Assembly: GCA_963662175.1 (NCBI GenBank)
Contig: OY759222.1
Location: 2,648,713-2,712,712, forward strand
DNA: 64,000 bases
Reading direction: 5' to 3'
Source: Aradus depressus
Lineage: Eukaryota > Arthropoda > Insecta > Hemiptera > Aradidae
The notes beneath the pieces are model-generated. The model made no database searches, had not been told where the DNA came from, and saw only the letters and a list, made by a program, of their open reading frames with translations. Below, in pieces: positions 12,668 to 63,900 of the stretch (position 1 is its first letter; each line of letters opens with the position of its first letter). The position numbers and the translations under genes are program-made.

Positions 12668-15600
12668 ATGGAGTCATCGGGTAGCAGCAGGTCTGAACCT
12701 GTTGACGAAGACAAAGGTAAAGACAAAGATGGGGACAAGGTGATGAATGAAGGTAAAGGGGAAGAAGTAGCAGGTGATAAAGATGAAAATGAGGGCGTTC
12801 CTGGAGGAACGTTACACGAAGTAATACAGGCGTTTATCAATGACAGTTCCAGGTATCCTGAACTGTATTTAGGCATTGAAAACGATGTAACAATCCCGGA
12901 TGAGGATGTTGCAGACGTGGAATCGTTTGAGAGCTTAAAGCCAGTGGGAATCGCGCTGCCTATTTATGATCATGATATGGGCGGACCAAGCAAGCCCCAT
13001 GCCAACTCGGATGATGATTTTTTAGAGATAAATGAAACGGACCCAAACTCAAAGAAAACTGCTCTCATCAAAGATGGAAATGATACTTCAGGAAGGAAAA
13101 GTGACGATACAGATACTTCACTGCAGGTGGGAACGGAGAGTTGTACAGAGGTAGATAGTTCGAAAGATCATTTTGGATGTAGTAATGAGGGGAAGATTGT
13201 GGATGTGGCGAGCTGTGGTCCCTATGTAGTGAGGGCCATCTCTGGAGAAGAGAACCCGGTAATTAGTTCAACCGAACAGCAGGACAGCGCAAGTTCTGTG
13301 AACACTCTCAAAGAGTACATCGAGAACTTTCATCCCTTCCTCTCTTTAGATGAGACGGAAACGGAGACCAGGAGCGACACCTCACTCGTACTTCAGGCAA
13401 CTTGTGATCCTTCCATGCCTGTTTTGGAAAACGAAATCGAAAAGAAGCCAACAGTTTTAGAAGGATCGAGACCTCCAGTATTGCAGCCTGAGGGGGAGAT
13501 GCCGTTCCTTATTGCTTCGAAAGAGAACTTAGGTGGAAATGGCGTTATTCTCCGGCAGGGTATCAGCGCCGGACTGGCACACGTTATCAAAGATGACCGA
13601 CTCAAAAAAAAAGAATTGTTGACTGTACAAAATATAGTCCAGGTTGAAGTTTGTCAGTCTAAACAAAAGGGTAAGCGGAAGAGGAGACGACGTAAGACGA
13701 GGAGATGGTCCCAAGGAAGGAAAGGCAAGGTGCTACCCAACATGCCGTCCTTGTCTCCAGAGAGGAAGGAAGAGGAAGATAGCTATCTTCCGGCCGTGCC
13801 TGGAACTTCTGTAAGTAGGACGACAGGGAAGGTCCACAAGAAACAACTGGGGAGGAGTGGTCCCTTCGGAGGGAATGGACACAGGGGGGTGAGCACTGCC
13901 CATGTTGCGCCTTACAGGGACGATTGTACCGAGTTGAAGGATAGCACAGTCAACAGTGAGGACATACCAGCCAAATCAGTTGCAGAAGAGAGACAGTCAG
14001 ACATTGAAACGTTTGAACTGGGGCAGCTGAATACAGAGACAGTGGGAAAACGAGTAGACTCTGAGGAGGAGAATTCATTTATAAAAGCGAGACAACTGAA
14101 CCCTCAGGAATTCAGTTCATCAATAGAAGTAAAGCAATCAAATCTAGGAGAGTTAAATTCAGAGGGAGTCAATGGATATGAGGGGATTAGTGGCCAAATG
14201 CACACAGGGCTGATTGCCTGCCAGGAAGTAGTTATCGGAGTTCCATCTTCGTCCGGATTGGATGACTCCGTCCCTACCTCCGTCGTAGAATCTCCCGAAG
14301 AGTTTAAGTCTCCCGAGGAGCTATTATATAGATACAGATATCCAGACCAAGTAGTTCCCAGCAACCCCGAAGATGATTATCCATTTTTAAATATTTTCTC
14401 AAAAAGTTCTTCAAGCAACACTCTACTGGACGGAAGAAAAACTACCAACGTAACTTGCGCCGGTTCCGGCGACGACAACACATCTTTTACAGAACTCATT
14501 TCCGCATGTTTAAATTCGTCAGTAGAACAACTAAACAATTCTGAATCTGATAATCATGAAAAATTATATGAAATTTTAAAAGAACTTCCAGGAGGAGATG
14601 TTTTAACTAAAACTAAAGAACGGCAAGGTCCTTGTCTCAGTGGGAGGAACGAGGACGTCCTGTTGTCCAGTGAATTTTCTTTGAAAGAAGTAGGATCGAA
14701 GGATTCGAGCAGATGTGAGTTTGAAGTTGATACAAGGAGTAAGACAGAATCAGCCTCAACACCAGACGAAGAGCCAAACCTACTTGCTGTAGAAAATTGT
14801 TATAAGACTCCGCTTAAAAGTTTAGAGTCTCATGAAACTTCAGATAGAAATGTTATTTCCAAACTGATAAAACCATTCTCAGTGCTTCACTTAGAAGGAG
14901 TGATCATTTCTGTTTCATCGGTAGATTCAAATGAAAATAATACAAAAGACACTGAATTGATCGCACATAATGATCAGAAACATTCATTTACTACAGATAA
15001 TTGTGGTAATAAAGTTGACAATCTGAGTATTTGTGAAAAGGAAGGAGGTACATCTATGTTTCCAGAATGTGCAAGAAGAGTGTGCGATTCTGAAGAATTG
15101 GGGTCTATCTCTAGTTGTGTTGGCAGTGTATCTGAAAGGCAGAGTGTGAACAAGAAAGAGGAGGCTGAATCCAAGACTCAAGACCAGGCAGTGGCTGTAA
15201 CTAGCTCAGGGGGAGTAGACATTTTTGATAAGTTCAAAAGTTGTATTGAAGAGCTAAAAGAGTCTCTAATGATGGTGAATATTTTTGGAAAATCAGCATC
15301 TGTTATTGAATCAAACGAAAAACGTGTACAACCTGAATCAATAAATATGAATAAAAAACAAGAGTCAATTTTCGTTTCTTCAATAAATATAAACCTACAG
15401 AAAGATGATGTTTTTCAAAAAGATTTTCAAATAGTCCAAAATTCAGATTCACATTCAAACATATCTGACGGTGCCTTAGCAACATGTGTGGAATCACTCA
15501 ATTCTTTTAAGACCCAAGATGCTGAACATTTAAAAAATGGTTATGAAACTAAGACAAGTGTCATCCCAGCTAAGCTGTACGATTCTAACTCAGATGTTAC

Positions 15601-18600
15601 TGTCGACGTAGCCAAAGTAATGGAGGCTGAGGTTGTTTCCGAGGATTCTATATTTTTATCTAAATCTTGCGAAACTGAAGTCGCCCTAAAATATCAAACT
15701 ATACCAGACATTTCTAGAGAAATCCTAACATCTGTAACACCGCTTGCGAAGAGTTCTGACTGTGGAGATGACTTGGAGGATGGAATATCTTGGATTATCA
15801 AGAACGATAAATCTGATGAACCAGAAGACATGTCCTCAGCTTGCGTGAATGGCTCAGAAATTGTTATTTCAGTTGCTTCTGAAGAAATATTATCAAATCC
15901 TATAGAGTCGATGGAACTTGTTAAATGGAATAGCGCTAACGACTTGAAGAATTGTGAGGATGTGTCGCAAAGTGTTCAAGATTTGAAAACTTCCGAATGT
16001 GGTTTAGAAAATTTAGATATGTTAAGTTCTGGCATCTCTGGATACTCATGTGAAGATCTCTTAGTAATATCTGCAGAATCAGTGCTCTCAGAAGACACAC
16101 CAAAGTCTCCAGAACTTCCGGAGGTCCAGGTGCAACTTGCGAACAATGCGCCAGAAAGTCGCGTGGATGGTATATCAGAGAAGTGCGAAGATATCTTAAT
16201 CATGTCTGCAGAACCAATTCTCTCAAAAGCTAACATGAGAGAAGACATACCAAAGACTCCAGAACTTCTTAAGGAAGAGGTACAATATGTGAACTGTGCA
16301 CCAGAAAGTCGCATGGTTGGTATATCTGAGAACTGTGAAGAGGCCTTAGTTACTTCTGCAGAATCTACTCTCCTAGAAGCCGACATGGGAGTAGAAAAAT
16401 CAAGGCTTTCAGAACTTCTTGATTTACAGCTGGATCTTGCGGACAATGCGCCAGAGAGTCTCATGGATGGTATATCTGAAAAGAGTGAAGAGGCCTTAGT
16501 CAAGTCTGCAGGATCTCCGCTCCCAGAAGCCAACATGTCAAAAGACATAATAGATGAAGACATACCAAAGTCTCCAGAACTTCCTGAGGTGAAGGTGCAA
16601 CTTGCGTACAATACGCCAGATAGTCTTATGGATGGTGTAGCTGAGAAGGGTGAAGAGTGCTTAGTCATGTCTGCAGAATCTACGCTCCCAGAAGCCAACA
16701 GGGGGGAAGACATATCAACATTTTCAGAGTTTCTTGAGGAACAGGTAGATGTTGCGAACAATGTTCCAGAAAGTCGCGTGGATGGTATACATGAGAAGTG
16801 TGGAGATACCGCAGTCATGTCTGCAGAATCCAGGATCTCAGAAGATAACGTCACAAAAGACATAATAGATGAAGACATACCAAAGTCTCCAGAACTTCCT
16901 GAGGTGAAGGTGCAACTTGCGAACAATACGCCAGATAGTCTTATGGATGGTGTAGCTGAGAAGGGTGAAGAGTGCTTAGTCATGTCTGCAGAATCTACGC
17001 TCCCAGAAGCCAACAGGGGGGAAGACATATCAACATTTTCAGAGTTTCTTGAGGAACAGGTGGATCTTGCTAACAATGTTCCAGAAAGTCGCGTGGATGG
17101 TATACATGAGAAGTGTGGAGATACCGCAGTCACGTCTGCAGAATCCAGGATCTCAGAAGATAACGTCACAAAAGACATAGTGGAGGAAGACTTACCAAAA
17201 TCTCCAGAACGTTCTGAGATCAAGGTGCAACTTGCGAACAATGCACCAGATAGTCTTATGGATGGTGTAACTGAGAAGAGTGAAGAGGCTTTAGTCATGT
17301 CTGCAGAATCTACGCTCCCAGAAGCCGAAATGGGAGAAGACATATCAACGTTTTCAGAACTTCTTGAGGAACAGGTGGATCTTGCTAACAATGTTCCAGA
17401 AAGTCGCGTGGTTGGTATACATGAGAAGCGTGGGGATACCTTAGTCATGTTCCCAAGATCTCCGCTCCCAGAAACCATTTCAAAAGACATCGCAGATGAA
17501 GACATACCAAAGTCTTCAGAACTTCTTGAGGTCAAGTTGCAACTTGCGAACAATGCGCCAAAGAGTATCATTGATGGTATATCTGAGATGTGTGAAGAGA
17601 CCTTAGTCTTGTCTGCAGGATCTCCGATCCCAGACACCAACCGGTCAAAAGACATCGCAGATGAAGACATACCAAAGTCTCCAGAACTTGTTGAGGTCAA
17701 GTTGCAACTTGCGAACAATGCGCCAGAGAGTATCATTGATGGTATATCTGAGATGTGTGAAAAGGCCTTAGTCGTGTCTGCAGGATCTTCGGTCCCAGAA
17801 GCCAACATGACAAAAGACATAGTGGATGAAGAAATACCAAAGTCTCCAAAACTTCGTGAGATCCAGGTGCAACTTGCGAACAATGCACCAGAAAGTAGTG
17901 TGGATATTATATCTGAGAAGTGTGAAGAAGTCATGGCTGAAGAACCTATGGAGAGAGAAGCCAATAGCCCAAAAGAATTGACTGATTTTAGCGTTGAACC
18001 TTCCGTCGCCCTGGAGCCACCGCGAACTGCTCAATCTTACGATCCTCTTCAAAATCAAGCAAAAAAATATAGTAGATCTGATTATATACAAATAACATCC
18101 GAGCATACAGAACCTTTGCAACCTGTTATTTTAGATATTCCAGTTAATTTGACTTTTTCTAAAGATAAATCCCCGAAGGAGGATGTAACTATTTGTAATA
18201 AGTCCGAAGAAATAACGCTTTTCTGTGGCGAGCCATTACGACCTGTTATTGTTGACGTTGCGACGGAACTGGGCAAAAAAGAGTTAACTTCTTGTGAAAA
18301 TGTCTCACCTTTGGATGAGGATATGACTGAATCTACAGGAATACCACCAAAGCTAACTGAGCCAGCTCAGATTTGCGATCTTGATGATCCTAAAGGATTG
18401 ATAACTTGTGAAGTTATTCTAAAAAATTCGAAGTCCACTACAAAACAGTTTACAAAATCTGACTCTAATTTTCTGTTTGCCTCTAATAAACCTGACCATA
18501 TTTTGAAACCTTTAAGAAATAAATCTAAATTAAATGTCAACCGGAAAAAGCAAATAGAACCTGTAAAATGTTGTATAGTTGCTGGTGGATCGGGAGAAAG

Positions 18601-19166
18601 AGATGCTGCAAAGGGATCTGTCTCTTCTTCCAATCCGGTCGATGCTGAATCCAACAATGGAAGACTTTTCGAATCTATCAAAGATGGAAACGGAGCCACT
18701 TCTGTCGAATATCTTTCGGAACCTCAGAAAGAAATGTTCAATAAGTTGAAAATTAAAGATTATTTTTCAAAGGAATTATCTTCCCAACGTAAACAGAAAA
18801 CAAATGGTGATTTAGAAGAAATAAAAGCCAATAACATTTTCCCGCCAAGAGATGATGGTGTTGCAAACAAAGTTTCAGTTCAAGTAGGACAAACTAACGA
18901 CCAGTCTACTTTTCCAAAATTGTCACAACTCCCCATCAACGGTGACATATCAATGTCCTTTGTGGTAGCTTCTGAACATTTTTCTAAACTCTCAGCCAAT
19001 CACGACAGTTCTAGTGCATTTTTAAATAATTTTAATGGGAGGAGAACCGCCGTTGTTTTTGAAAAGTCAAAATCAAATTCAACTCTCGATTATTCAATTT
19101 TGGGGAAAAAAGAAATTTTCAACAAAGAGAAAGGAAAGATCAACGGAGATTTGTCATCACAAAATG
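12668..19166 (+). CDS. giant repeat-rich acidic protein, exon 1 (2,166 codons)
   Basis: A single 6.5-kb coding exon. The start is fixed because an in-frame TAA lies immediately upstream of the ATG (TAAATGGAG). The exon ends AATG/GTGAGA. The leftover G pairs with GT at the next exon to make glycine, so the frame continues at 20,484. The protein is acidic and Ser/Glu-rich, hence probably largely disordered. Visible parts are: a charged N terminus; a strongly basic cluster at residues about 331-353 (KGKRKRRRRKTRRW), a likely nuclear localisation signal; and at residues about 1,140-1,760 roughly twelve repeats of 50-55 residues. The repeat core is PKSPELPEVKVQLANNAPES, then (L/R)(M/V)DG(I/V)(S/A)EK and MSAES. 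I do not recognise the family and propose no function. Continuous length, absence of stops and phase agreement at the intron make it a real gene. Confidence 0.85.
16085..17950 (+). repeat. in-frame coding repeats, about 12 units of 150-165 bp
   Basis: Units starting at CCAAAGTCTCCAGAACTTC or variants occur near 16,101, 16,250, 16,400, 16,565, 16,717, 16,880, 17,030, 17,198, 17,350, 17,512, 17,676 and 17,840. A two-unit block is duplicated at high identity with 315-bp spacing (16,565 and 16,880), which keeps frame (105 codons). The antisense strand stays open for 662 codons across this region, apparently because the repeated codons happen to lack stops in that frame. Confidence 0.9.
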
Positions 19167-20483
19167 GTGAGAATTATTTTAATTTTTAATATTTATTGTA
19201 GACTGCTACGACTAAAACAAATTATTTTGAAATGCTATAACATACATGGATCTCTTAGCCCGTACACTTACCGACGCTACTGGAACAAAGAAACTGAAAA
19301 TTGCATTATAAAAATGGCTATTAAAATATGTTCATACAAATAATCTAGCTACAAATTGAATCAGGATTGGAGCTACAAATGATCCAATAGAAAAAAATGG
19401 ATTGTGATAATTTTGTTAGTTTTTGTAATATGGCTCTGCTAGCTTCAATATTTCGCTAGCAAAGCCATTAGATTTAAAAAATATATATAATGCTACAATT
19501 TTGAAATTTGAGCAACAAAATTTTAAGTAAGAATGGATTCTGCTCATTTGGCTTTGCCGCCTTCAGGTATCGTAACATTTTTTCAAATTCAATTTTTATT
19601 GTATTTATAATGAAGTTATAGAACTGGAACACATTAGATAAAAATTTAAAAAAAAAAACAGTTTATTATAAGTTTAAAAAAAAAATTCTACTCAGAAAAA
19701 CATCTTATTTTTAATGCTATTACTTAAAAAAAAAAAAAAAAAAGTAAAAAACATTTTTCAAAATGTAAAAATGATCTGCTGTTTTTTTTCTCCAATTGGC
19801 AACAGCCAACCTTGCCATATTTTTAGAAAAATATGCATATAAATGATTCATTGAGTTTGTGCCAACCTTTAGTACTCAGTAGTCTTGTAGTACTCATTTC
19901 TTGTGGGGATATATTCAGTGATGGATCCATGGGTGGGGTACAATCAATAAGTGTGATCCCCTAGTGATTTCTCTGTTTAATGTTCAATATGGCCGCTACT
20001 ATAGAAAATTCTAATTGGAATTTCGCATCATACTTTTCACCAATTTATATTTATTTTATATATTTATTTCTTGCGCTTCACTGACATGATAATATGTTAC
20101 TTTCTTCCAGAGGTGTCTTCAATTTTGACAATATTTCGGGACACTCCCACGTCCCTTCTTCGGGTTCATCATGACACGAAAAATTAACGTGGAAGTGTTT
20201 CGATGTATTGTCAAAGTTAAAGACACCTCGAAGAAATGGAAAAAAAAAAAAAAAGTAACTTATTATTTTATAGTAATTAATAAGAGGACCTATTCTAGTC
20301 TACTCTCTTATATTTATAGAGAAAAATAACAAGAAGTACACTTAGTTTATGAAAATTATACATTGTTATATTATGCTGCTAATATGCGACGTGCGCCATC
20401 TATCGCAGACAGCAAACATTTTATTTTGTATAAATTATGTGAATATTCATTCATATTATTAAACAATTGTTCTGATATTTCAG
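19167..20483 (+). other. intron of the giant gene
   Basis: A 1,317-bp intron, donor GTGAGA and acceptor GATATTTCAG. It is AT-rich with several poly(A) and poly(T) runs and contains a foldback sequence near its 3' end. Confidence 0.8.
20089..20265. repeat. foldback (inverted repeat) in the intron
   Basis: The left arm (about 20,089-20,151, from GTTACTTTCTTCC through GAGGTGTCTTCAATTTTGAC to CACTCCCACGT) is mirrored by a right arm (about 20,187-20,265). The right arm's reverse complement reads GAGGTGTCTTTAACTTTGAC...CACTTCCACGT. Arms are about 50-60 bp with a few mismatches and a poly(A) insertion in the right arm. The loop of about 35 bp contains CCCTTCTTCGGG. It could be a small foldback element or a pair of element ends; the transcript would form a hairpin. 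Confidence 0.75.
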
Positions 20484-23400
20484 GTTTTGCGGTGAGTCCG
20501 GGGGAGAGGAGCATGCTGTACATCGGAGGAGACGGGTACATTGTGCTGGATGAGGTGGGGACGGAAGAGGATGAAGAGATGGAGGTCTCGGTAGTGGAAG
20601 TGAAACCGATTAAGGACAACCAGTGGATATGCCCTACTCGACATGGGGAAGGGAACATTGACAAAATTGAAGACGGAAAAACTGGTGCCAAGAATGTATA
20701 CAAACGTACATCTTGCGAAAATTCAAGAAAAAAAGGAGTAGGTTTGTATTTTTTAAGGATCAACCGAGAAGACCCGGGAGTAAGTAGGCAGTATAAAAGG
20801 AACGGACTGAAGAGAAGAAGAATGGTGAGTAATGGAGACATGGAAGCGGAAAGAGCAGGGGAGGGGGGGAGCTGCAGGGATCCTCGGCTGAAGCACCTGG
20901 TGTCTGCAGTCCGACAGAACATACAGAACGAAATATTGCAGAACGGGAAACTGTCGGAGACCAGCTGTACAAAATATCAGCTCTCCTCCAGTGAACATAT
21001 AAACAGAAAAACAGGAGTCCTTGTACAAACGTTACTCACTGAAGATAACATGACAACAACAAAGAAGCGCAAAACTGTCGACAATTCTAAGCATCTCAAC
21101 ACTCATTATGTACGCAATGGTGGAAAGAAATGGAAACATCTGACTGAAGGTAGAAGCATCAGCATGTCTGAAAGAAAGAAACCGAGCAGTGAGGGTCTTT
21201 TACTGGAAAGACAGATTACATCGCAGAAATCTGTTCGATGGAAACTTCCACAAGCTAGGAAAAGCTCTGAAAAACTGAATACTCCAATTAACAAGGATTG
21301 TGGTAACGTCAAATTTTATGGTACAGAAATTAGGAAACAGCATGTTACAAATGAGCTTATACTCGCAGTGAATGAAACAACCGTCAGCGAACTGACGGAG
21401 CAGAAAATCACAGTAGCTGCGCATGAAATATCAGAAAATGAAAATAACAATCATGACCAATCACAGAAGGTTGTTGGCGACATTGGAACATCTAAAGGTG
21501 ATATTACTCAGCAAGAGCCAGCGCAACACATCATCGTAACAACCGACAGCGGAATAGCTCAACAAGTGCTATCGCAGGAAAACATAGTTGCCGTCGACTT
21601 ACCATCGGAGAGTGAGAGAACACAGCAGCATGAATACCCGGAGAATACTGGCGGTGGTGATAAAAAGTCTGTGGATGAAGCAGCTCCGGAGGAGCAATCA
21701 CAAAAGTCTGATATCGGCGATGAAAAAACTGACGCTGAAGTAGTTCCAGAGGAACAATCACAGGAGAATATTGTTGATCGCGATGGAACATCTGAGGATG
21801 AAGTAGCTCAGGAGAAGTCTGTTATCTGCGATGTTACATCTGAGTGTGCAATAGCACAGGAGAAGCAATCACAGGATAAGTCTGATTTCTGCGATTTTAC
21901 ATCTGAGTGTGCAGTAGTTCAAGAGGACAAATCACAGGAGAAGTCTGATTTCTGCGATGTTACATCTGAGTGTGCAGTAGCACAGGAGGAGCAGGTACAA
22001 GAGAAGTCTGATATCTGCGATGTTACATCTCAGTGTGAAGTAGCACAGGAAGAGCGATCACAGGAGCAATCTGGTGTCTGTGATGTTACATCTGAGGGCG
22101 AAGTAGAACCGGAGCAGTCTGATGTCTGTGATGTTACATCTAAAAGTGAAGTAGCACAGGAGAAGTCTGATATCTGCGATGTTACACCTGAGTGTGAAGT
22201 AGCACAGAAGGAACAATCACAGGAGACGTTTGTTGTCTGCGATGTTACATCTGAGACCGAATTAGCTCAGGAGAAGTCTGGTGTCTGCGATGTTACATCT
22301 GAGTGCGAAGTAGCTCAGAAGAAGTCCAATATCTGCGATGTTACATCTGTAGGTGAAGTAGCTCAGGAGAAGTCTGGTGTCTGCGATGTTACATCTGAGG
22401 GCGATTTAGCTCAGGAAACGTCTGAGGTCTGTGATGTTACATCTGGGGGCGAAGTAGCACAGGAGCAATCTGGTGTCTGCGATGTTACGTCTGAATGTGA
22501 AGTAGCACAGGAGCAGTCTGGTGTCTGCGATGTTACATATGTGGGCGAAGTAGCACAGGAGGAGCGATCACAGGAGCAGTCTGATATCTGCGATGTTTCA
22601 TTTGAATGTGAAGTAGCACTGGAGCAGTCTGATGTCTGCGATGTTACATCTGAGGGCGAAGTAACTCAGGAGGAGCGATCACAGGAGCAGTCTGATATCT
22701 GTGATGTTACATCTGAAATTGAAGTAGCACTGGAGCAGTCTGATGTCTGCGATGTTACATCTGAGGGCGAAGTAGCACAGGAGGAGCGATCACAGGAGCA
22801 ATCTGGTGTCTGCGATGTTACGTCTGAATGTGAAGTAGCACAGGAGCAGTCTGATGTCTGCGATGTTACATCTAAGGGCGAAGTAGCACAGGAGGAGCGA
22901 TCACAGGAGCAGTCTGATATCTGCGATGTTTCATTTGAGGGCGAAGTAGCACAGAAGAAGCGATCACAGGAGCAATCTGCTGTCTGCGATGTTACATCTG
23001 AATGTGAAGTAGCACAGGAGCAGTCTGATGTCTGCGATGTTACATCTAAGGGCGAAGTAGCACAGGAGGAGCGATCACAGGAGCAGTCTGATATCTGCGA
23101 TGTTTCATTTGAGGGCGAAGTAGCACAGGAGAAGCGATCACAGGAGCAATCTGCTGTCTGCGATGTTACATCTGAATGTGAAGTAGCACAGGAGCAGTCT
23201 GATGTCTGCGATGTTACATCTAAGGGCGAAGTAGCACAGGAGGAGCGATCACAGGAGCAGTCTGATATCTGCGATGTTTCATTTGAATGTGAAGTAGCAC
23301 TGGAGCAGTCTGATGTCTGCGATGTTACATCTGAGGGCGAAGTAGCACAGGAGGAGCGATCGCAGGAGCATTCTGATATCTGCGATGTTTCATTTGAATG

Positions 23401-26400
23401 TGAAGTAGCACTGGAGCAGTCTGATGTCTGCGATGTTTCATCTGAATGTGAAGTAGCACAGGAGCAGTCTGATGTCTGCGATGTTACATCTGAGGGCGAA
23501 GTAGCTCAGAAGTCTGGTGTCTGCGATGTTACATCTGAGTGTGAAGTTGCGCAGGAGCAGTCTGATGACTGCGATGATACATCTGAGGGCGAAGTAGCTC
23601 AGAAGTCTGGTGTGAGTGATGTTACATCTGAAGGTGAAGTAGCACAGGAGGAGCGATCACAGGAGCTGTCTGATATCTGCGATGTCATATCTGAATGTGA
23701 AGTTGCACAGGAGCAGTCTGATGTCTGCTATGTTTCACCTAAGGGCGAATTAGCTCAGGAGAAATCTGGTGTATGTGATGTTACATCTGAGTGTGAAGTT
23801 GCACAGGAGCAGTCTGGTGTCTGCGATGTTACATCTGAAAGTGAAGTAGCACAAGAGAAGTTTGTTGTCTGTGATGTTACATCTGAAAATGAAGTAGCAC
23901 AGGAGGAGCAATCACAGGAGACGTTTGTTGTCTGTGATGTTACATCTGAGTGTGAAGTAGCACAGGAGCAGCAATCACAGGAGAAGTCTGATATCTGCGA
24001 TGTTACATCAGAGTGTGGAGTAGCTCAGGAGAAGTCTGGTGTCTATGATGTTACATCTGAAAATGAAGTAGCACAGGAGGAGCAATCACAGGAGACATTT
24101 GTTGTCTGCGATGTTACGTCTGAGTTTGAAGTAGCACATGAGCAGTCTGATGTCTGCGATGTTACATCTGAATGTGAAGTAGCATGGGAGCAGTATGATA
24201 TTTGTGATGTTACATCTGAATGTGAAGTAGCTCAGGAGGACCAATCCCAGGAGAAGTCCGTTTTCTGCGATGGAACATCCGAGTGTGAAGTAACACAGGA
24301 CCAGCAATCACAGGAGATGTCTCTCGTTTGCGTTGGAACATCTGAGTGTGAAGTAGCTCAGGAGGACCAATCACAGGAGAAGTCCGTTTTCTGCGATGGA
24401 ACATCCGAGTGTGAAGTAACACAGGACCAGCAATCACAGGAGATGTATATCGTTTGCGTTGGAACATCTGAGTGTGAAGTAGCTCAGGAGAACCAATCAC
24501 TGGAGAAGTTTGTTGTTTGCGCTGGAATATCTGAGGGTGATATAGCTCTAGAGGAACTGTCACAGAAGTCTGTTGTCTGTGATGTTACATCTGTGGTTGA
24601 AGTACATCAGGAAGAGTTATCACAGGAGAATATTACTGTCCACGATTTGCCCTCAGATGAATTGAAAATGCAGAACCCATTGCTAAATGATGTTTCAAAG
24701 GATCCAGAATTCAGAACTTCTGGAGAGGTTGAGGAGACATCCCATGATATTGCAGCAATCGACAGCATTGTTCATGGAGATGACGATATTTCAAAGAACG
24801 AAGTTGCAGAACAAGAGGTGAATGTTGAACGTAACGCCAAGGATGTGACAAAACAACAAGGAAGTACTTGGAAACAGCGTGTAACTCAAGTCGTTTCATG
24901 TGGTACGCATATTATTGATTATAAGTGCGACTCTGATCGGGGTGTTGTTTGTAAGGACTGTATTTCAGATATGTCAGGCCCTGGTTGTCACATCGATGTG
25001 GAAGCTCAGAGCCAGGGGAAGATCAGGAGACCGAATTGCAAAGAGCAGATGCACTTAGTGGAAGGATCTGGGCCGGGGAATGAAGTGCTTGCTTTGCCGA
25101 AGAGTTTTTTAAAGAATCGTTTTTTAATGTATGGAGGAAAATCTTACGATACTGCCTATGACTATGCTGAACTCTACTGTCTAAATATAATCACAAGATG
25201 TTTTATTCGATTGGACCGAATGGATCAGTCAACTTTGCAAATTATTTTAAAATCAAAAAATGAGGGAGTGATGTCAATCGGATTGGATAATCCGCCATCC
25301 ACGGCATTGCAGTTGTGCCAAAACGCTAGAGGGGCGGGTAAGAGGACTTGGGAGGTGTCAAAATTGGGTGACCTGGCTGAGGCGAGACGGTCCAAGGAAG
25401 CCAGGCTCTCCTGTGAGGACAGTCCGTCCGCTACTCCACATCCGACCTCACAGGAGGCAATGCTAACTCATCAGCTCTTCCACCCCAGAAAATATACCAT
25501 CTTTAAAAGTAAAAATAGTTCAAATGTTCCTAAGAAACCTGTTATTCCTCTGCGTTTAGTTTCATCAAAAGATGCGGGGGGAAATACAGAAATGGCTGTT
25601 GATATGCATCCTTCGGAATATTCTGTGATAGCGCCTCGTTCAAAACCAGTGGAAAAAGACGAGCCTACAGTAAGTCTAGCTTCAGAGAAACTGTTGCCGA
25701 CAGACCATGGACAGTCAACATTTCCAGAAAACAACTCACAACTTTCTGAAATAGTTAATATTAAAGATGTAGTCACATGTGATCAAGAACAGTGTGTCAA
25801 TATGATGCTGGGAACAGCTGTTCATGTCAACGAGGACAGTCTCACCAAATCTACGGATACAACTCCGGAGTCCACTGAAAATAACGTAACTAATACACTA
25901 TCTGAATCAGTTGAACAATCGTCATCTTCAGAAAAAAATATATTAACAGAAATAATTGACTCAGCCACAGATCCTTCTGAAAATCAATTAGAATTGGATA
26001 CTCTTGATTTTGATCCTAATAGAAAAGTTTATAGAAATCCAAAATTCAAAGATTGGCACAAAGAAATGATGAAAGAAGCTGAAGAAAAAATGATAGCAAA
26101 TAAAATAGATTGTTCTCAGGATAAAGTATTATCAGAAGGGAAAATTCCACGAAAGGGCGGACCGAAGAAATGCAAAAGGAGGGGCAGTTTGAAGGGCGAA
26201 GACAAGCATGGCAGGCTAAGAAGGACCGAAATAGAAGTGATAAATTCTGAATCTGAAGAAATTACTCAGAATTCAGATAAACATTCCTTTTCTCCTGACC
26301 TAAAGACATTTCTTCTGACAAACTGTGACGAATTGTATCGACGGAATGTTATCAGACAGTGTACTGTTCTTTTGGAAAGATTGGACGAATCGGCTTTGGC

Positions 26401-28006
26401 GAGGGCGTCCGGGCGTAAAGTTGCTGAGTCTGGGACCGTGATAGGTCCCGCCAGGAGAAGAGGTCGGCCACCGAAGAGGGTTCGGCGAGTGGGAGGGTCA
26501 TCAGTGAGGGATGTGAGGTCAATGGTCCATCTTGTGGCTACAGATACAGAAGATGCACTTCCACAGCAACTGGAAACTGCAGCCACCTCGTCTATAGCAC
26601 TTGAGACAGACCCCTTGCCTCTGAAGCCGCCTCCTTTGGACGGCCCATGCAAGCTGCCAAGCCCCTCTTCATCCTCTGATCCTCTCACATCTACCTCAGA
26701 TAGGCTGATAGGTCGATCAGATACTCTGTCATCTCTTGACACTAGGGAGGAGACAGTGGGGAAGGTGTGTGAAGGAAGGGCAACAAATCCCATCAGCTCA
26801 CCCTCCAATGATAATGTTCCTGATTCATCCACGCGGAATTTAAGTTTAGTTTCCGACAATCCTTCTGAAATTCCCCCAATCAAAGATACAACACCTGTTT
26901 TCTCAAATAAATCAAGTACTAATTATGCACCTAACCCTGTTCTACCCATAGAAGATCCGGACGTTGAATCTTCATCTGAGTCTGAAATGATGAAAACTGA
27001 TTTTGGACCACGTTTTGGGGAAAGAAGACTAAACACAGAAGAGCGAACTTTTCACGGTTCGCAAAAAGCTGATTTTCCAGCTAGCATTCCTGGATCCTCC
27101 AGGTCCTTCATACCTTCAGAAACTCCATCAAACACGAATGCATCATTAATTTTTTCCAAAGAACCATCTAATTATTATTCACCTAATCATGGTCCACCCA
27201 GAGAAGATTCTAGTGTCGAATCTTCATTTGAGTTTGAAATGCTGCAGGCGCTGTTGGCTAATGCTTTAGGAGGAAATGGCTCAAAGCGGAATAATTTTCG
27301 AACACGGTTTTTAGAACAAGGACCAAACGTGGATGATCAATTTTTTTCTAGGTCACAAAGAGGAGCTGGCTTCTCACATGGCATCCCAGACCGCCCGAGG
27401 TCCTTTTTTTCGTGGTCAAACTATTTTGCGAGTCTCCCCAGGAAAAGGCCAAAAAACTACAACGAAGCTCCATTAGGCGAAGAGTTGTTCAAAAAAATGT
27501 GTTGTTCAATTGAAGAGGACGACTCTAGGTACGACTATTCTCGTTTGCGTAATGTTGAATTGGATTCAAACAAGTTGGAGAAAATATTGAATATTTTAGA
27601 TGGTAAACCTGAGGAACAGTCACCGAGCGGCACCTCGAAGAAGGACGAAGAGGGTTTCAGCGGCTTCACGGACTGCCTTATCCCAAGCCATCTCCCGGCC
27701 CACTGTACAACTTGTAAACGAAAATACGAAATTGCCCAACTGGATATTGCTAACGTAAAGGCAGCCATGTATGCTCTTTCTCGAACCCGTCCTCCTCCCA
27801 GAACAGTTGAAGAAAGAACCCAACAGAATTTCCCTCCAACCCATCCCCACAGAAGATTTGAAGAAAGAACTCATCTGAACCTCCCCCAAACCCATCTTCC
27901 TGACAGAACAGCTGAAGAAAGAACCCAACAGAACTTCCCCCGAACCCATCCTTGCAGAACAGCTGAAGAAAGAACACAAGTCTATTTTTCGCCGTCAAAT
28001 TCTAAG
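20484..28006 (+). CDS. giant repeat-rich acidic protein, exon 2 (about 2,508 codons)
   Basis: Begins GT TTT GCG after TTTCAG and completes the glycine codon from exon 1. The first residues are GFAVSPGERSMLYIGGDGYI. Next come a basic region (GLKRRRMVSNG), about 55 short Cys-containing repeats (CDVTSECEVAQE type, nt 21,800-24,640), then a more complex C-terminal part. That part contains two related segments sharing the pattern ELY-x2-N-x-I-x2-C-x3-L-x-R-x-D-x-S (nt about 25,170-25,250 and 26,325-26,395). It also contains an AT-hook, RRRGRPPKR (nt about 26,452-26,480), which suggests nuclear DNA binding, and a CTTCKRKYEI motif near 27,708. I end the exon at TCTAAG/GTAATA. Read-through to the stop at 28,154 would add an AT-rich hydrophobic tail that looks intronic. 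To this point the frame totals 4,674 codons with exon 1. Confidence 0.8.
21800..24640 (+). repeat. in-frame coding repeat tract of 13- to 21-codon units
   Basis: Dozens of units of the form (E)QSDVCDVTSECEVAQE, optionally extended by ERSQ. Most carry two cysteines, one before DVTS and one after. A nested higher-order unit of exactly 174 bp (58 codons) begins at CTGATGTCTG at 22,851, 23,025 and 23,199 and is almost identical between copies. Every change in unit length is a multiple of three, so the frame is under selection or was recently expanded. Confidence 0.95.
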
Positions 28007-28444
28007 GTAATAATATCTTTATCAATAGTCAATAATAATTCAATGAAAATGATTAAATTCATAATTCTTTTTAAATGCTTTACAATTCTAAAGGCCAAAA
28101 TAGCCTTTTTATTTCTATTTCAATTTTTTCATTCAACAAATCATAGTTACTATTAAATTGATTGATGATGAAAATTTTTCTTTTTTCTTTTTAATGATCT
28201 TTATAGTGCAATAAGGCACTTTTTTTTTTTTTTTTTTTAAATAGAAATCGGTAAATATTTTTGTGATAAGAGTTAAAAGAAATAAGAAGAGCGAAGATCC
28301 TTCAAGAAAGAAGACAGATTTAACTGAAAAATATATGAAAGAAGAATAGTATTAATTGAATAGAAATCTAGAGGGCGTGGGGAGACTAGCTGGGAGGAAA
28401 ATTAAATCCTGGGCACAAATGATCCTTTGGTCAAAGGTTTGCAA

Positions 28445-29864: not shown

Positions 29865-30450
29865 GAACTTGAATGTCGGTGGAACGCAGCCATTAAGAGT
29901 TAATCTCTAATAAGAGAATGGATATTTTGAAGGATATCCGAAATGGTTTCTTAAAAATATTTTTCCAAATTACATTCATTATGTCAGATTCAAAGCTTTA
30001 GGATATTTCAAAATTTAGTGTTCTGTGAGAATTGACATATTTATGTTTTAATTTACTCTCATGAGATAGATAGATAAACTTTATTGCAGTAAAGATTACA
30101 ACTTTTATGGCAATGAGTTTTTTTCTTTTTAACCTGCCAGCATATAAGGAAGTTATTGTAATGGGTCCGAAAATCTAAATCAAAAATTTCATCATATTTT
30201 TATGTTTCAAGGTCATTACAGTAATTTTACACTATTTTTGGAAAGAAGTGTGTACCTGGTCAGTTTTTCCTGCACGATATCGCGCGAATGAAAAATGATA
30301 TCGACCACGTTTTGCTGTCATTCGAAGCGTATCAACGTAAATATGATCTGAAAGGAATTTTATCAAATTCGGTCCACCCGTTTTTTGTTTGAACAAAAAG
30401 ACTGCTAAAAAAATGGATTTTAGGAATTTGTTCTGGTGGCAATCTAGAAT
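29865..30450. other. intergenic, nothing recognised
   Basis: AT-rich sequence between the SINE and the small satellite-related array; no gene seen. Confidence 0.5.
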
Positions 30451-31046
30451 CCATTAGAGCCAGATTGAAAAATAGGCTATATGGCGTCTGAAAATTTTAA
30501 ACGGGGGGGGGGGGTATGAGACAGCTAGACATACAAATTGTTCTAGCTCATTAACGGATAGTCGGATTGTTATGAAATTTCACATGTTATATTCTTAATA
30601 GCCAATTGAAAAATAGGGTGTGTGAGGTCTCAAAATACTTAAGGGGGGGGGGGGGGGGGGGCCTATGCATAAAAATAGGTCTAGCTCATCCACGGATGAT
30701 CGGATCGTGATAACATTTCACATATAGTATTCCTAAGACCCAATTGAGATAAAGACTACCTGGCGTCACGAAATTCTTATGCTGAGTGGAGGGGGGGGGG
30801 GGGGGGGGGGTAAACATAAAAGTAGGTCTAGCTCATCAACAGATGTTCGGATTTTAATGAAATTTAACATGTAGTATTCTTAAAAGCCAAATTGAAAAAA
30901 AGGTGTGTGACGTCTCAAAAATCTTATCAGGAGGGGGGACTGTGAGTGGAGGTTGAGCATAAAAATAGTTCAACCTCATTAACGGATTATCGGAGTGTCA
31001 TGAAATTTTACATGTAGTCGTTTTAAAAGCAAAATTAAAAAAAAAT
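30451..31046 (-). repeat. small tandem array of satellite module A relatives
   Basis: About four copies with spacing 138, 147 and 143 bp (CTAGCTCAT or its equivalent at 30,543, 30,681, 30,828 and 30,971). Read on the minus strand each copy matches module A of the 40-64 kb array: long C tract, GTGACG, CTATTTTTCAATTTGG, a TGAAATTTCATGACAATCCG-like segment and a GAGCTAGACCTATTTTTATG-like segment. Divergence is much greater than among array copies. Several units contain G runs of 10-20. Confidence 0.85.
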
Positions 31047-34083: not shown

Positions 34084-34545
34084 TCGCCGCCATATTACTT
34101 CCCCAGAACGAATTAATCTATTAACTTTTCGCTCCTCCTCCAAAACCAGTCGACCATTTGCGCTAATAGTTGACTAAAAGTTGGGGCTCCTAAATCCTCA
34201 TACTAAATCTTGTGTTGAACCCGTCACTGAAATTTTGTGTCAAACCACTCATTACAACGGCAGTTCTTGGAGTTTTTGAGTTGAGCCTCTCCCATAATCC
34301 CCCCTCCCCTTTGGTCCGATATGGCTTAAAATCGATAGGTGTTGTCTTTATGGAGTTCTGAATTCACATATAAAATTTCGTGCCGATACATTCATTCTAC
34401 CGGAAGTTATCGTGTTCACAGACAGATTTTTTTTTTTTTTTTTTTGTTCCTATTTGGAATCTAGAGGTCGGAAAACATGAAATTCCATTGAAAACTCCAC
34501 ATCGAATTTTTGACCGATTACATAACTTCGTATCGCTGGGGAAGT
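34084..34545 (-). mobile_element. element bounded by TTACTTCCCCAG inverted ends, carrying two module-B-like units
   Basis: Short inverted ends (TTACTTCCCCAG at about 34,100, its reverse complement CTGGGGAAGTAA at about 34,536) enclose 450 bp. On the minus strand the interior contains GATAACTTCCGGTAGAATGA then ATGTATCGGCACGAAATTTT, and later AGAACTGCCGTTGTAATGAG. Between them lie the ATATCGGAC and GGGGAGGGGGG parts. These are two diverged B modules in tandem. Its outer part is shared with the dispersed repeats at 1,678 and 9,384. It appears nested in the Tc1-like element. Confidence 0.65.
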
Positions 34546-56924: not shown

Positions 56925-56960
56925 AGTATAGATTATATTAGATATTTATATTAGATATTT
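56925..56960. repeat. deletion junction between module C and module B
   Basis: Module C stops at GTTTCAGTATAGA. It is followed by TTATATTAGATATTTA twice over and then the interior of a B monomer (AAAATTAACATTCACGGAGG). The missing part is the end of C and the start of B. Short ATTAGATATTTA repeats mark the join. Confidence 0.85.
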
Positions 56961-57269
56961 AAAATTAACATTCACGGAGGACATAACCAGTCAAATTTCA
57001 GCGATATCGGCCGAGGGGAGGGGGGAGTTCCGGGATGGGCGCTCAGTCCAAAAATCCCAATAACTGCCGATGTAATGAATGTATCGACATCAAATTTCAT
57101 ATTTAAAACTAAAATCCACTTAGGACATAACCTTTGAAATTTCAGCGATATCGGCCGAGGGGAGGGGGGAGTTCCGGGGTTGGGGCTCAGTTCAAAAATC
57201 CCAATAACTGCCGATGTAATGAATGTATCGACATCAAATTTTGTATTTAAAACTAAAATCCACTTAGGA

Positions 57270-57412
57270 GCTATTTAATTCTTTTTTTATTTTATCTGCT
57301 AATAATGCGCAAACTTTCATGGCTCTGCTTGGATTTTCAAAAATCTTCGCACACTGTATGTATGTGTCACTATTCAGCCCGGATGATAAAACAAAATGCC
57401 CATGCAAAATGA
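57270..57412 (-). pseudogene. pyrE: bacterial-type orotate phosphoribosyltransferase (pyrE) fragment inserted in a B monomer
   Basis: A B monomer is interrupted between CCACTTAGGA and CATAACCAGTC by about 141-143 bp found nowhere else in the window. Its minus strand is open throughout (about 47 codons). It includes LHGHFVLSSGL, SDTYIQCAKIFENPSRA and KVCALLADKIKKEL, then runs into satellite and stops. In the PyrE family as I know it, the alphaproteobacterial group has GHF(V/I)LSSGLHS..Y.QCA..., followed by P..A..LC..LA.K. Animal UMPS instead has KFG-F-LKSG..SP. The A/T-rich codons and the SDTYIQCA-KIFENPSRA wording suggest Rickettsiales, such as Wolbachia. It lacks the N terminus and the PRPP-binding half, so it is non-functional. 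Junctions show only about 2 bp (GA) of overlap. Confidence 0.8.
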
Positions 57413-57480
57413 CATAACCAGTCAAATTTCAGCGATATCGGCTGGGGGGAGGGGGGAGTTCCGGGGAGAGGGCTCAGTTC

Positions 57481-60400
57481 AAAAATCCACAACCTCCCTC
57501 CCGTTCACAATTGTGTGACGTCGCACACTTTTTTTTTCTATTTGGCCTTCAAGAATACCACATATGAAATTTGATGACAATCCAACCATTAATTAATGAG
57601 TTAGCACTATTTTTATGCTTAGGCCCCCCTTACAACCCCCCCTCTCGTTGGAAATTTTGGGACGCCACATAGCCTATTATTCAATCGGTCTTGAAAGGAT
57701 GCTACATGTGAAGTTTCATGAATATCCGTCCAGCCGTTTGGGCGTGATGCTGGAAGAAACATAGAAACAAACCCTGTTTCAGTATGGAAGTATAGAAGCC
57801 GGTGGAAGAGAATGGGTAGATAAGCGAGTCTGAATTTAAAAATCCCAATAACTGCCGATGTAATGAATGTATCAACATCAAATTTCGTATTTAAAATTAA
57901 CATTCACGGAGGACATAACCAGTCAAATTTCAGCAATATCGGTCGAGGGGAGGGGGGAGTTCCGGGGTGTGGGCTCAGTTCAAAAATCCCAATAACTGCC
58001 GATGTAAAGAATGTATCGACATCAAATTTCGTATTTAAAACTAAAATCCACTTAGGACATAACCAGTCAAATTTCAGCGATATCGGCCGAGGGGAGGGGG
58101 GAGTTCCGGGGTGTGGGCTCAGTTCAAAAATCCCAATAACTGCCGATGTAATGAATGTATCGACATCAAATTTTGTATTTAAAACTAAAATCCACTTAGG
58201 ACATAACCAGTCAAATTTCAGCGATATCGGCTGGGGGGAGGGGGGAGTTCCGGGGAGAGGGCTCAGTTCAAAAATCCACAACCTCCCTCCCGTTCACAAT
58301 TGTGTGACGTCGCACACTTTTTTAATCTATTTGGCCTTCAAGAATACCACATATGAAATTTCATGACCATCCGACTTAATTAATGAGTTAGCACTATTAT
58401 TATGCTTAGGCCCCTCTTACAACCCCCCCTCTCGTTGGAAATATTGGGACGCCACATAGCCTATTATTCAATCGGTCTTGAAAGGATGCTACATGTGAAG
58501 TTTCATGAATATCCGTCCAGCCGTTTAGGCGTGATGCTGGAAGAAACATAGAAACAAACCCCGTTTCAGTATAGAAGTATAGAAGCCGGTGGAAGAGAAT
58601 GGGTAGATAAGCGAGTCTGAATTTAAAAATCCCAATAACTACCGATGTAATGAATGTATCAACGTCAAATTTCGTATTTAAAATTAACATTCACGGAGGA
58701 CATAACCAGTCAAATTTCAGCGATATCGGCCGAGGGGAGGGGGGTGTTCCGGGATGGGCGCTCAGTCCAAAAATCCCAATCACTGCCGATGTAATGAATG
58801 TATCGACATCAAATTTCATATTTAAAACTAAAATCCACTTAGGACATAACCTGTGAAATTTCAGCGATATCGGCCGAGGGGAGGGGGGAGTTCCGGGGTG
58901 GGGGCTCAGTTCAAAAATCCCAATAACTGCCGATGTAATGAATGTATCGACATCAAATTTCGTATTTAAAACTAAAATCCACTTAGGACATAACCAGTCA
59001 AATTTCAGCGATATCGGCCGAGGGGAGGGGGGAGTTCCGGGGAGAGGGCTCAGTTCAAAAATCCACAACCCCCCTCCCGTTCACAATTGTGTGACGTCGC
59101 ACACTTTTTTTTTCTATTTGGCCTTCAAGAATACCACATATGAAATTTGATGACAATCCAACCATTAATTAATGAGTTAGCACTATTTTTATGCTTAGGC
59201 CCCCCTTACAACCCCCCCTCTCGTTGGAAATTTTGGGACGCCACATAGCCTATTATTCAATCGGTCTTGAAAGGATGCTACATGTGAAGTTTCATGAATA
59301 TCCGTCCAGCCGTTTGGGCGTGATGCTGGAAGAAACATAGAAACAAACCCTGTTTCAGTATGGAAGTATAGAAGCCGGTGGAAGAGAATGGGTAGATAAG
59401 CGAGTCTGAATTTAAAAATCCCAATAACTGCCGATGTAATGAATGTATCAACATCAAATTTCGTATTTAAAATTAACATTCACGGAGGACATAACCAGTC
59501 AAATTTCAGCAATATCGGCCGAGGGGAGGGGGGAGTTCCGGGGTGTGGGCTCAGTTCAAAAATCCCAATAACTGCCGATGTAAAGAATGTATCGACATCA
59601 AATTTCGTATTTAAAACTAAAATCCACTTAGGACATAACCAGTCAAATTTCAGCGATATCGGCCGAGGGGAGGGGGGAGTTCCGGGGTGTGGGCTCAGTT
59701 CAAAAATCCCAATAACTGCCGATGTAATGAATGTATCGACATCAAATTTTGTATTTAAAACTAAAATCCACTTAGGACATAACCAGTCAAATTTCAGCGA
59801 TATCGGCTGGGGGGAGGGGGGAGTTCCGGGGAGAGGGCTCAGTTCAAAAATCCACAACCTCCCTCCCGTTCACAATTGTGTGACGTCGCACACTTTTTTA
59901 ATCTATTTGGCCTTCAAGAATACCACATATGAAATTTCATGACCATCCGACTTAATTAATGAGTTAGCACTATTATTATGCTTAGGCCCCTCTTACAACC
60001 CCCCCTCTCGTTGGAAATATTGGGACGCCACATAGCCTATTATTCAATCGGTCTTGAAAGGATGCTACATGTGAAGTTTCATGAATATCCGTCCAGCCGT
60101 TTAGGCGTGATGCTGGAAGAAACATAGAAACAAACCCCGTTTCAGTATAGAAGTATAGAAGCCGGTGGAAGAGAATGGGTAGATAAGCGAGTCTGAATTT
60201 AAAAATCCCAATAACTACCGATGTAATGAATGTATCAACGTCAAATTTCGTATTTAAAATTAACATTCACGGAGGACATAACCAGTCAAATTTCAGCGAT
60301 ATCGGCCGAGGGGAGGGGGGTGTTCCGGGATGGGCGCTCAGTCCAAAAATCCCAATCACTGCCGATGTAATGAATGTATCGACATCAAATTTCATATTTA

Positions 60401-60975
60401 AAACTAAAATCCACTTAGGACATAACCTGTGAAATTTCAGCGATATCGGCCGAGGGGAGGGGGGAGTTCCGGGGTGGGGGCTCAGTTCAAAAATCCCAAT
60501 AACTGCCGATGTAATGAATGTATCGACATCAAATTTCGTATTTAAAACTAAAATCCACTTAGGACATAACCAGTCAAATTTCAGCGATATCGGCCGAGGG
60601 GAGGGGGGAGTTCCGGGGAGAGGGCTCAGTTCAAAAATCCACAACCCCCCTCCCGTTCACAATTGTGTGACGTCGCACACTTTTTTTTTCTATTTGGCCT
60701 TCAAGAATACCACATATGAAATTTGATGACAATCCAACCATTAATTAATGAGTTAGCACTATTTTTATGCTTAGGCCCCCCTTACAACCCCCCCTCTCGT
60801 TGGAAATTTTGGGACGCCACATAGCCTATTATTCAATCGGTCTTGAAAGGATGCTACATGTGAAGTTTCATGAATATCCGTCCAGCCGTTTGGGCGTGAT
60901 GCTGGAAGAAACATAGAAACAAACCCTGTTTCAGTATGGAAGTATAGAAGCCGGTGGAAGAGAATGGGTAGATAA
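57481..60975 (+). repeat. 1,576-bp segmental duplication within the array
   Basis: Units 57,863-59,438 and 59,439-61,014 have the same length pattern (787, 789) and share rare variants. These are CCGACTTAATTAATG (2-bp loss) at 58,372 and 59,948, CCCAATCACTGCCG at 58,776 and 60,352, CAGCAATATCGG, and CAGTATGGAAG. The second CAGTATGGAAG copy at 59,356 and a third at 60,932 show that the repeat extends past both listed edges. Few differences are visible, for example GGTCGAGG at 57,950 against GGCCGAGG. Confidence 0.88.
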
Positions 60976-63900
60976 GCGAGTCTGAATTTAAAAATCCCAA
61001 TAACTGCCGATGTAATGAATGTATCAACATCAAATTTCGTATTTAAAATTAACATTCACGGAGGACATAACCAGTCAAATTTCAGCAATATCGGCCGAGG
61101 GGAGGGGGGAGTTCCGGGGTGTGGGCTCAGTTCAAAAATCCCAATAACTGCCGATGTAAAGAATGTATCGACATCAAATTTCGTATTTAAAACTAAAATC
61201 CACTTAGGACATAACCAGTCAATTTTCAGCGATATCGGCCGAGGGGAGGGGGGAGTTCCGAGGAGAGGGCTCAGTTCAAAAATCCACAACCCCCCTCCCG
61301 TTCACAATTGTGTGACGTCGCACACTTTTTTAATCTATTTGGCCTTCAAGAATACCACATATGAAATTTGATGACAATCCGACCATTAATTAATGAGTTA
61401 GCACTATTTTTATGCTTAGGCCCCCCTTACAACCCCCCCTCTCGTTGGAAATTTTGGGACGCCGTATAGCCTATTATTCAATCGGTCTTGAAAGGATGCT
61501 ACATGTGAAGTTTCATGAATATCCGTCCAGCCGTTTGGGCGTGATGCTGGAAGAAACATAGAAACAAACCCCGTTTCAGTATAGAAGTATAGAAGCCGGT
61601 GGAAGAGAATGGGTAGATAAGCGAGTCTGAATTTAAAAATCCCAATAACTGCCGATGTAATGAATGTATCAACATCAAATTTCGTATTTAAAATTAACAT
61701 TCACGGAGGACATAACCAGTCAAATTTCAGCAATATCGGTCGAGGGGAGGGGGGAGTTCCGGGGTGTGGGCTCAGTTCAAAAATCCCAATAACTGCCGAT
61801 GTAAAGAATGTATCGACATCAAATTTCGTATTTAAAACTAAAATCCACTTAGGACATAACCAGTCAAATTTCAGCGATATCGGCCGAGGGGAGGGGGGAG
61901 TTCCGGGGAGAGGGCTCAGTTCAAATATCCACAACCCCCCTCCCGTTCACAATTGTGTGACGTCGCACACTTTTTTAATCTATTTGGCCTTCAAGAATAC
62001 CACATATGAAATTTCATGACCATCCGACCATTAATTAATGAGTTAGCACTATTTTTATGCTTAGGCCCCCCTTACAACCCCCCCTCTCGTTGGAAATTTT
62101 GAGACGCCACATAGCCTATTATTCAATCGGTCTTGAAAGGATGCTACATGTGAAGTTTCATGAATATCCGTCCAGCCGTTTAGGCGTGATGCTGGAAGAA
62201 ACATAGAAACAAACCCCGTTTCAGTATAGAAGTATAGAAGCCGGTGGAAGAGAATGGGTAGATAAGCGAGTCTGAATTTAAAAATCCCAATAACTACCGA
62301 TGTAATGAATGTATCAACGTCAAATTTCGTATTTAAAATTAACATTCACGGAGGACATAACCAGTCAAATTTCAGCGATATCGGCCGAGGGGAGGGGGGA
62401 GTTCCGGGATGGGCGCTCAGTCCAAAAATCCCAATAACTGCCGATGTAATGAATGTATCGACATCAAATTTCATATTTAAAACTAAAATCCACTTAGGAC
62501 ATAACCTGTGAAATTTCAGCGATATCGGCCGAGGGGAGGGGGGAGTTCCGGGGTTGGGGCTCAGTTCAAAAATCCCAATAACTGCCGATGTAATGAATGT
62601 ATCGACATCAAATTTCGTATTTAAAACTAAAATCCACTTAGGACATAACCAGTCAAATTTCAGCGATATCGGCCGAGGGGAGGGGGGAGTTCCGGGGAGA
62701 GGGCTCAGTTCAAAAATCCACAACCCCCCTCCCGTTCACAATTGTGTGACGTCGCACACTTTTTTTTTCTATTTGGCCTTCAAGAATACCACATATGAAA
62801 TTTGATGACAATCCAACCATTAATTAATGAGTTAGCACTATTTTTATGCTTAGGCCCCCCTTACAACCCCCCCTCTCGTTGGAAATTTTGGGACGCCACA
62901 TAGCCTATTATTCAATCGGTCTTGAAAGGATGCTACATGTGAAGTTTCATGAATATCCGTCCAGCCGTTTGGGCGTGATGCTGGAAGAAACATAGAAACA
63001 AACCCTGTTTCAGTATAGAAGTATAGAAGCCGGTGGAAGAGAATGGGTAGATAAGCGAGTCTGAATTTAAAAATCCCAATAACTACCGATGTAATGAATG
63101 TATCAACGTCAAATTTCGTATTTAAAATTAACATTCACGGAGGACATAACCAGTCAAATTTCAGCGATATCGGCCGAGGGGAGGGGGGAGTTCCGGGATG
63201 GGCGCTCTGTCCAAAAATCCCAATAACTGCCGATGTAATGAATGTATCAACATCAAATTTCGTATTTAAAATTAACATTCACGGAGGACATAACCAGTCA
63301 AATTTCAGCAATATCGGCCGAGGGGAGGGGGGAGTTCCGGGGTTGGGGCTCAGTTCAAAAATCCCAATAACTGCCGATGTAATGAATGTATCGACATCAA
63401 ATTTCGTATTTAAAACTAAAATCCACTTAGGACATAACCAGTCAAATTTCAGCGATATCGGCCGAGGGGAGGGGGGAGTTCCGGGGAGAGGGCTCAGTTC
63501 AAAAATCCACAACCCCCCTCCCGTTCACAATTGTGTGACGTCGCACACTTTTTTTTTCTATTTGGCCTTCAAGAATACCACATATGAAATTTGATGACAA
63601 TCCAACCATTAATTAATGAGTTAGCACTATTTTTATGCTTAGGCCCCCCTTACAACCCCCCCTCTCGTTGGAAATTTTGGGACGCCACATAGCCTATTAT
63701 TCAATCGGTCTTGAAAGGATGCTACATGTGAAGTTTCATGAATATCCGTCCAGCCGTTTGGGCGTGATGCTGGAAGAAACATAGAAACAAACCCTGTTTC
63801 AGTATAGAAGTATAGAAGCCGGTGGAAGAGAATGGGTAGATAAGCGAGTCTGAATTTAAAAATCCCAATAACTACCGATGTAATGAATGTATCAACGTCA

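Follow-up and report, generated by a model that had tools for sequence, protein, structure and literature searches.

Wolbachia DNA is known to have entered the nuclear genomes of its hosts in pieces of many sizes, and published cases range from short fragments to totals of hundreds of kilobases. In the DGRP lines of Drosophila melanogaster, Wolbachia insertions of ~180 bp occur at two sites on 2R in 4 of 205 lines, and that study names the occurrence of Wolbachia in developing gametes as the likely explanation for the frequency of such transfers (PMC4079974). In Chorthippus parallelus the inserts derive from two supergroups, adding up to no less than 448 kb for one and 144 kb for the other; the study could not tell few large pieces from many small ones, and placed some inserts in telomeric heterochromatin by FISH (PMC4675112). 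The nuclear Wolbachia transfers (NUWTs) of filarial nematodes come from several supergroups, and their enrichment by repeat class involves Pao elements, Helitrons in some hosts, and no link in others (PMC12693587). A parallel class of events is offered by primate numts, where 33 of 71 two-sided insertions combine a microhomology junction with a blunt one, 30 have two blunt junctions and 8 have two microhomology junctions; within the mixed class, 14 of 33 lost host bases and 19 of 33 show no host deletion (PMC2567098).

Here we describe an insert that is very probably a NUWT: a ~143-bp fragment of pyrE, from a close relative of sequenced Wolbachia strains, captured in a single monomer of a tandem array in the host nuclear genome. 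It is a small example of a known event, and leaves general knowledge of symbiont-host transfers unchanged. Like the DGRP insertions it is a short Wolbachia piece in an insect nuclear genome; however, those were tested by PCR and Sanger sequencing (PMC4079974), whereas the present insert lies in a tandem array and is known from one assembly. It is a Wolbachia-derived nuclear fragment as the filarial NUWTs are, although the hosts there are nematodes and the main text of that study does not use the word “satellite” (PMC12693587). Chorthippus parallelus is an insect host too, but with hundreds of kilobases against ~143 bp here (PMC4675112), and the primate numts share the blunt-plus-microhomology class with a donor that is mitochondrial DNA (PMC2567098). 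A limited search of open-licence papers found no description of a Wolbachia fragment inside a satellite monomer, and we make no claim of priority. The value of the locus is that the transfer is clean and nearly undecayed: one assembly displays the donor group, the two junctions and a number of empty paralogues, so that the repair route can be read at base level.

The window is the whole stretch of 64,000 nucleotides that was analysed, with positions counted from its first base. The features on which the argument depends are as follows.

41060-64000, plus strand: tandem array of A and B units, running ~5 kb past the window
57194-57269, plus strand: left part of the interrupted B monomer (B positions 1-76)
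57267-57269: junction bases GGA (plus strand) or TCC (minus strand), belonging to the host flank and, in 5 of the 6 nearest genomes, to the Wolbachia continuation alike (TC in all 6); microhomology
57270-57410, minus strand: Wolbachia pyrE fragment, 47 codons, open, without the start or end of the gene
57411-57412: host-side GA on the right, identical to that at 57268-57269 (2-bp overlap); blunt
57411-57480, plus strand: right part of the interrupted B monomer (B positions 75-144)
57481-57837, plus strand: A unit following the interrupted monomer
58769-59413, plus strand: empty paralogue of the 645-bp block, 7 mismatches in 645
60345-60989, plus strand: empty paralogue of the same block, 7 mismatches in 645
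62424-63068, plus strand: nearest empty paralogue, 6 mismatches in 645

The first-pass annotation of this DNA had claimed that an insertion of 141-143 bp splits one 144-bp B monomer once, and this is what we find, at 57270-57410 and with no second instance in the array. Between 57410 and 57270 the minus strand of the insert translates to ILHGHFVLSSGLNSDTYIQCAKIFENPSRAMKVCALLADKIKKELNS, 47 codons with 0 stops, in which LHGHFVLSSGL, SDTYIQCA and KIFENPSRA follow one another in that order; the open frame comprises 54 aa in all. The annotation had reported this frame and its three motifs correctly, but its interval, 57270-57412, is out of frame when read from its end and contains stops; the open frame is read from 57410. 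The translated part corresponds to residues 18-64 of a 200-aa PyrE of the Wolbachia clade (locus L002; tblastn), and a tblastn search with that full protein against 104 kb around the insert returned it at E 6.5e-24, the next place scoring E 0.5. Among NCBIfam models, TIGR01367 (pyrE, orotate phosphoribosyltransferase) matched at E 7e-13 and two further pyrE models at E 4e-4 and 1e-3. The TIGR01367 score is 48.6 bits, against a whole-protein cut-off of 150; it falls short because so small a piece covers only 43 of 187 model positions. Pfam gave no match to this short piece at E up to 1.

That the frame belongs to pyrE and not to an animal UMPS had been claimed from the motifs, and the TIGR01367 match bears this out, as does the comparison with solved structures, in which the insert matched 4paw (which we take to be a bacterial orotate phosphoribosyltransferase) at E 1.7e-7 and 2wns (presumably human UMPS) at E 0.96. 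A chance resemblance, or a piece of animal UMPS that happens to look like PyrE, might be entertained on the ground that only 47 residues are involved, but it is refuted by the same structural contrast together with 98-99% DNA identity to six Wolbachia genomes, and we consider it vanishingly improbable. The insert is probably too short to work as pyrE. A functional acquired gene would need a complete open reading frame, of which 47 of ~200 codons are present, and the PRPP-binding motif is presumably absent; on both grounds no function is expected.

Similarity to Wolbachia DNA is widespread across the genus, with a match to the insert in 37 of 41 genomes and none in the other 4. In six of the 41 the identity is 98-99% over all 141 bases, and in the other 31 matching genomes the best matches reach at most 89%. 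Eighteen loci on named genome contigs encode relatives of the insert. Thirteen of these cover the piece fully or nearly so and form the Wolbachia clade, comprising 11 titled Wolbachia and two (L002 and L004) titled Rickettsiales bacterium that group with the Wolbachia loci; their protein identity to the insert is 79-89% in 12 of 13 and 70% in L012. One further locus, L017, is partial, with 96% identity over 24 residues. Outside the clade stand L013-L016 (three Rickettsiales and one alphaproteobacterium), at 68-71% protein identity, and among plasmid records tblastn found five pyrE-like matches, each below 60% identity. The insert thus nests within Wolbachia, no other source being as close, and a Rickettsia or other Rickettsiales donor is rejected, given the 68-71% protein identity of L013-L016 against 79-89% in 12 of the 13 Wolbachia-clade loci, and given the 98-99% DNA identity in six Wolbachia genomes. 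When a 20-kb piece of the nearest Wolbachia genome was compared with 324 kb of host DNA, only 57267-57410 matched, at 98.6% over 144 bp. An endosymbiont origin, Wolbachia- or Rickettsia-like, had been proposed from the motifs, with Rickettsiales genomes named as the place to look for similarity; it is found there, and on these sequence comparisons the donor is a Wolbachia.

With four adjacent pieces of the contig added, the array extends from 41060 to ~69156 and contains 95 complete B units together with 36 complete A units, and the only stretches longer than 10 bp without a match to A or B are the insert and 23 bp at 56933-56955; a shorter one, of 8 bp, lies near the right edge of the array at 68569. 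As assembled, the insert is flanked on both sides by host array, on a contig of 41.6 Mb. The interrupted 645-bp block (57050-57837 with the insert left out) has three empty paralogues that carry the unbroken site at 98.9-99.1% identity. With so few mismatches between them, the empty site is directly visible and the insert is absent from the closest paralogues. The right flank is similarly close to its neighbour, 4 of 1590 positions differing between 57411-59000 and 58987-60576.

These observations also bear on the concern that the locus is a chimera, made when library preparation or assembly fused Wolbachia DNA of an infected specimen to the array. In favour of it, the insert hardly differs from living Wolbachia, the array is repetitive and of the kind in which assemblers err, it is the assembly that supplies physical continuity at the two junctions, and Wolbachia insertions have been wrongly called in infected lines before (PMC4079974). 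However, both junctions fall within one monomer whose register is kept to within 2 bp, and random re-entry at the same base would be rare. Moreover, five sites, the same in each case, set the interrupted block apart from all three nearest empty paralogues, so that this block, on its 41.6-Mb contig, is not simply a paralogue with a false insert. We therefore regard such a chimera as unlikely and a genuine nuclear insertion as the preferred reading.

Several features of the surrounding array may be recorded. A block of 1576 bp is duplicated in tandem at 57838-59413 and 59414-60989 with 1 mismatch, in sequence terms a very recent expansion step adjoining the insert. At 56933-56955 an A unit ends 49 bp early and the next B monomer begins at position 51; the 23 bp between them belong to a 13-bp tandem repeat (TTATATTAGATAT), occur once in 324 kb of host DNA, and look like repair filler. 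A and B units are also present on C65, C57, C48 and C26 (L033, L041, L057 and L075), among 60 contigs sampled by their first 500 or 10,000 bases each. Diverged minus-strand relatives of A and B (72-81%) lie outside the array at 30442-31015 and 34298-34410, and the repeat family is therefore also dispersed.

The B monomer breaks off after its position 76 (base 57269) and resumes at position 75 (base 57411), an overlap of 2 bp. On the minus strand the order is host GGTTATGTC, the insert from ATTTTG to AATAGC, and then TCCTAAGTGG, where the empty site reads GGTTATGTCCTAAGTGG. In the 30 Wolbachia loci compared, ATTTTG is preceded by A, G or T; because C is absent there, this junction is without homology between donor and host, although C does precede ATTTTG in L009, a named locus at greater distance. 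At the other end, AATAGC is followed in the six nearest genomes by TCC in five and TCA in one, and by TC in all six. The best reading would accordingly be a 143-bp insert with one blunt junction, one junction of 2-3 bp microhomology and 0 host bases lost or gained, preferred because TCC continues in five of the six nearest genomes as it does in the host flank; a 141-bp insert with a 2-bp duplication may serve as an equal description of the same junctions. The ~2 bp overlap without a long target duplication that the first-pass annotation had noted is thus refined to one blunt and one microhomology junction.

In other words, the junctions have what is expected of filler DNA in end joining, with 0 bp of homology on one side, 2-3 bp on the other, and an overlap of 2 bp or none. 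They do not have what is expected of a retrotransposed copy: there is no A tail, the overlap is only 2 bp and the fragment ends inside the gene, and a retrotransposed gene is rejected on junctions and length. A related alternative is that the break was filled with cDNA of a pyrE transcript and not with genomic DNA; in its favour, the fragment lies wholly within one coding sequence. Yet a coding-dense bacterial genome usually yields an in-gene fragment by chance, and with no A tail and a target duplication of at most 2 bp nothing asks for an RNA step; we judge capture of cDNA very unlikely, and take genomic DNA to be the source.

How long ago this happened can be gauged from the few differences between the insert and its relatives. 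The three nearest Wolbachia genomes differ from it at 2 of 141 sites and the next three at 3 sites each. The difference at position 33 is synonymous, and the G of the insert is present in 16 of 30 loci; that at position 37, where C becomes A and codon 13 changes from His to Asn, is the sole base private to the insert among the loci compared, which were 30 cut out of the 37 matching genomes, at least nine of them from the same genomes as the named-contig relatives. In a tree of 31 rows the insert adjoins two of these six genomes; support is 91/82, weak on 141 bp, and the end branch measures 0.0064. Third codon positions hold more than half of the differences in each comparison with the 13 Wolbachia-clade loci (with L007, for example, 6, 3 and 11 differences at codon positions 1, 2 and 3), a comparison that left out the partial L017 and, as lying outside the clade, L013-L016, and in which L005 was misaligned over the last codons by an indel. 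This excess suggests that the differences arose in a gene under selection in bacteria, not through long decay in the host.

Among the 13 named Wolbachia-clade loci the best DNA identity is 121/141, from which an old insert or an unsampled donor might have been read; that interpretation was overturned by the 98-99% matches of the wider genus search. Near-identity and a single private base indicate that almost all divergence from other Wolbachia predates the transfer and took place in the donor, with about one change apparently needed since, subject to the wide error of 141 sites. Judged by these sequences the transfer is recent, and the insert suggests that the host lineage has recently met Wolbachia of the donor group. 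The insert had been called young before any comparison was made, and its youth now has two grounds, one private base among 30 loci and empty paralogues that are near-identical.

The insert DNA was found at one place in the assembly (697.7 Mb, 74 contigs), within the sensitivity of the search, and other repeat units yielded no copy, in keeping with the earlier view that it has not been spread by satellite turnover. A search of the whole assembly with the full Wolbachia PyrE protein likewise matched only this place, a single candidate being scored. The host UMPS was not recovered by that search, which therefore reaches close relatives and may miss distant or short remnants. In 324 kb of host DNA nothing besides the insert matched 120 kb of Wolbachia DNA, or the 39 stop-to-stop frames taken from five neighbourhoods of pyrE. 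No contig from C15 to C74 exceeds 667 kb, and the six nearest Wolbachia genomes are on contigs of 1.19-1.65 Mb, though smaller Wolbachia contigs may still be present. The last of the host contigs, C74, measures 17.8 kb and carries COI, read with the invertebrate mitochondrial code, within its first 10 kb. Other hosts are known to have large nuclear Wolbachia insertions, as listed in PMC4675112, and the piece might have been copied into the array from a larger insertion elsewhere in this genome. However, the insert DNA and the full PyrE protein match only one place in the assembly, so that another nuclear pyrE copy within it is probably not the source, and we hold such secondary copying to be highly improbable compared with direct capture from the symbiont.

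We propose the following route. A double-strand break would have occurred in the array in a host germline cell, where free Wolbachia DNA may have been used as filler; end joining would then have sealed the break, leaving one blunt junction and one of 2-3 bp microhomology, probably without net loss on the host side. Computation on this assembly shows the Wolbachia origin, the one place found, the intact flanks, the empty paralogues and the structure of the junctions; the break itself, its sealing, the timing in the germline and the lack of function are what we infer. Capture of a free fragment is the best explanation because the junctions fit the mixed class of numts and because Wolbachia is present in developing gametes. 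The earlier reading of capture during break repair is thereby supported, through the junctions rather than through observation of the event.

A broader hypothesis is that tandem arrays act as sinks for endosymbiont DNA, in which Wolbachia fragments mend the breaks that turnover produces and every unique scrap becomes a dated tag. We consider this doubtful, but if it were true, the rate of unequal exchange and homogenisation could be read from the scraps. The scar at 56933-56955, ~315 bp upstream of the insert, would fit a break-prone spot under that hypothesis. Independently of it, the insert is a unique marker for following the turnover of the tandem array; gene conversion could blur the clock that mismatches with the empty paralogues provide.

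Rfam at gathering scores returned nothing in the 64-kb window. Elsewhere in it, two very long open frames lie on the plus strand at 12668-19189 (2173 codons) and 20363-28156 (2597 codons); both contain many tandem repeats, with periods that are nearly all multiples of three, and their Pfam matches are few and weak. The first has a match to the CPAP tubulin-binding family at a whole-protein E of 2e-6, with no single stretch passing. A tRNA-Lys (CTT) is predicted at 10842-10916 on the minus strand in a run under the bacterial code.
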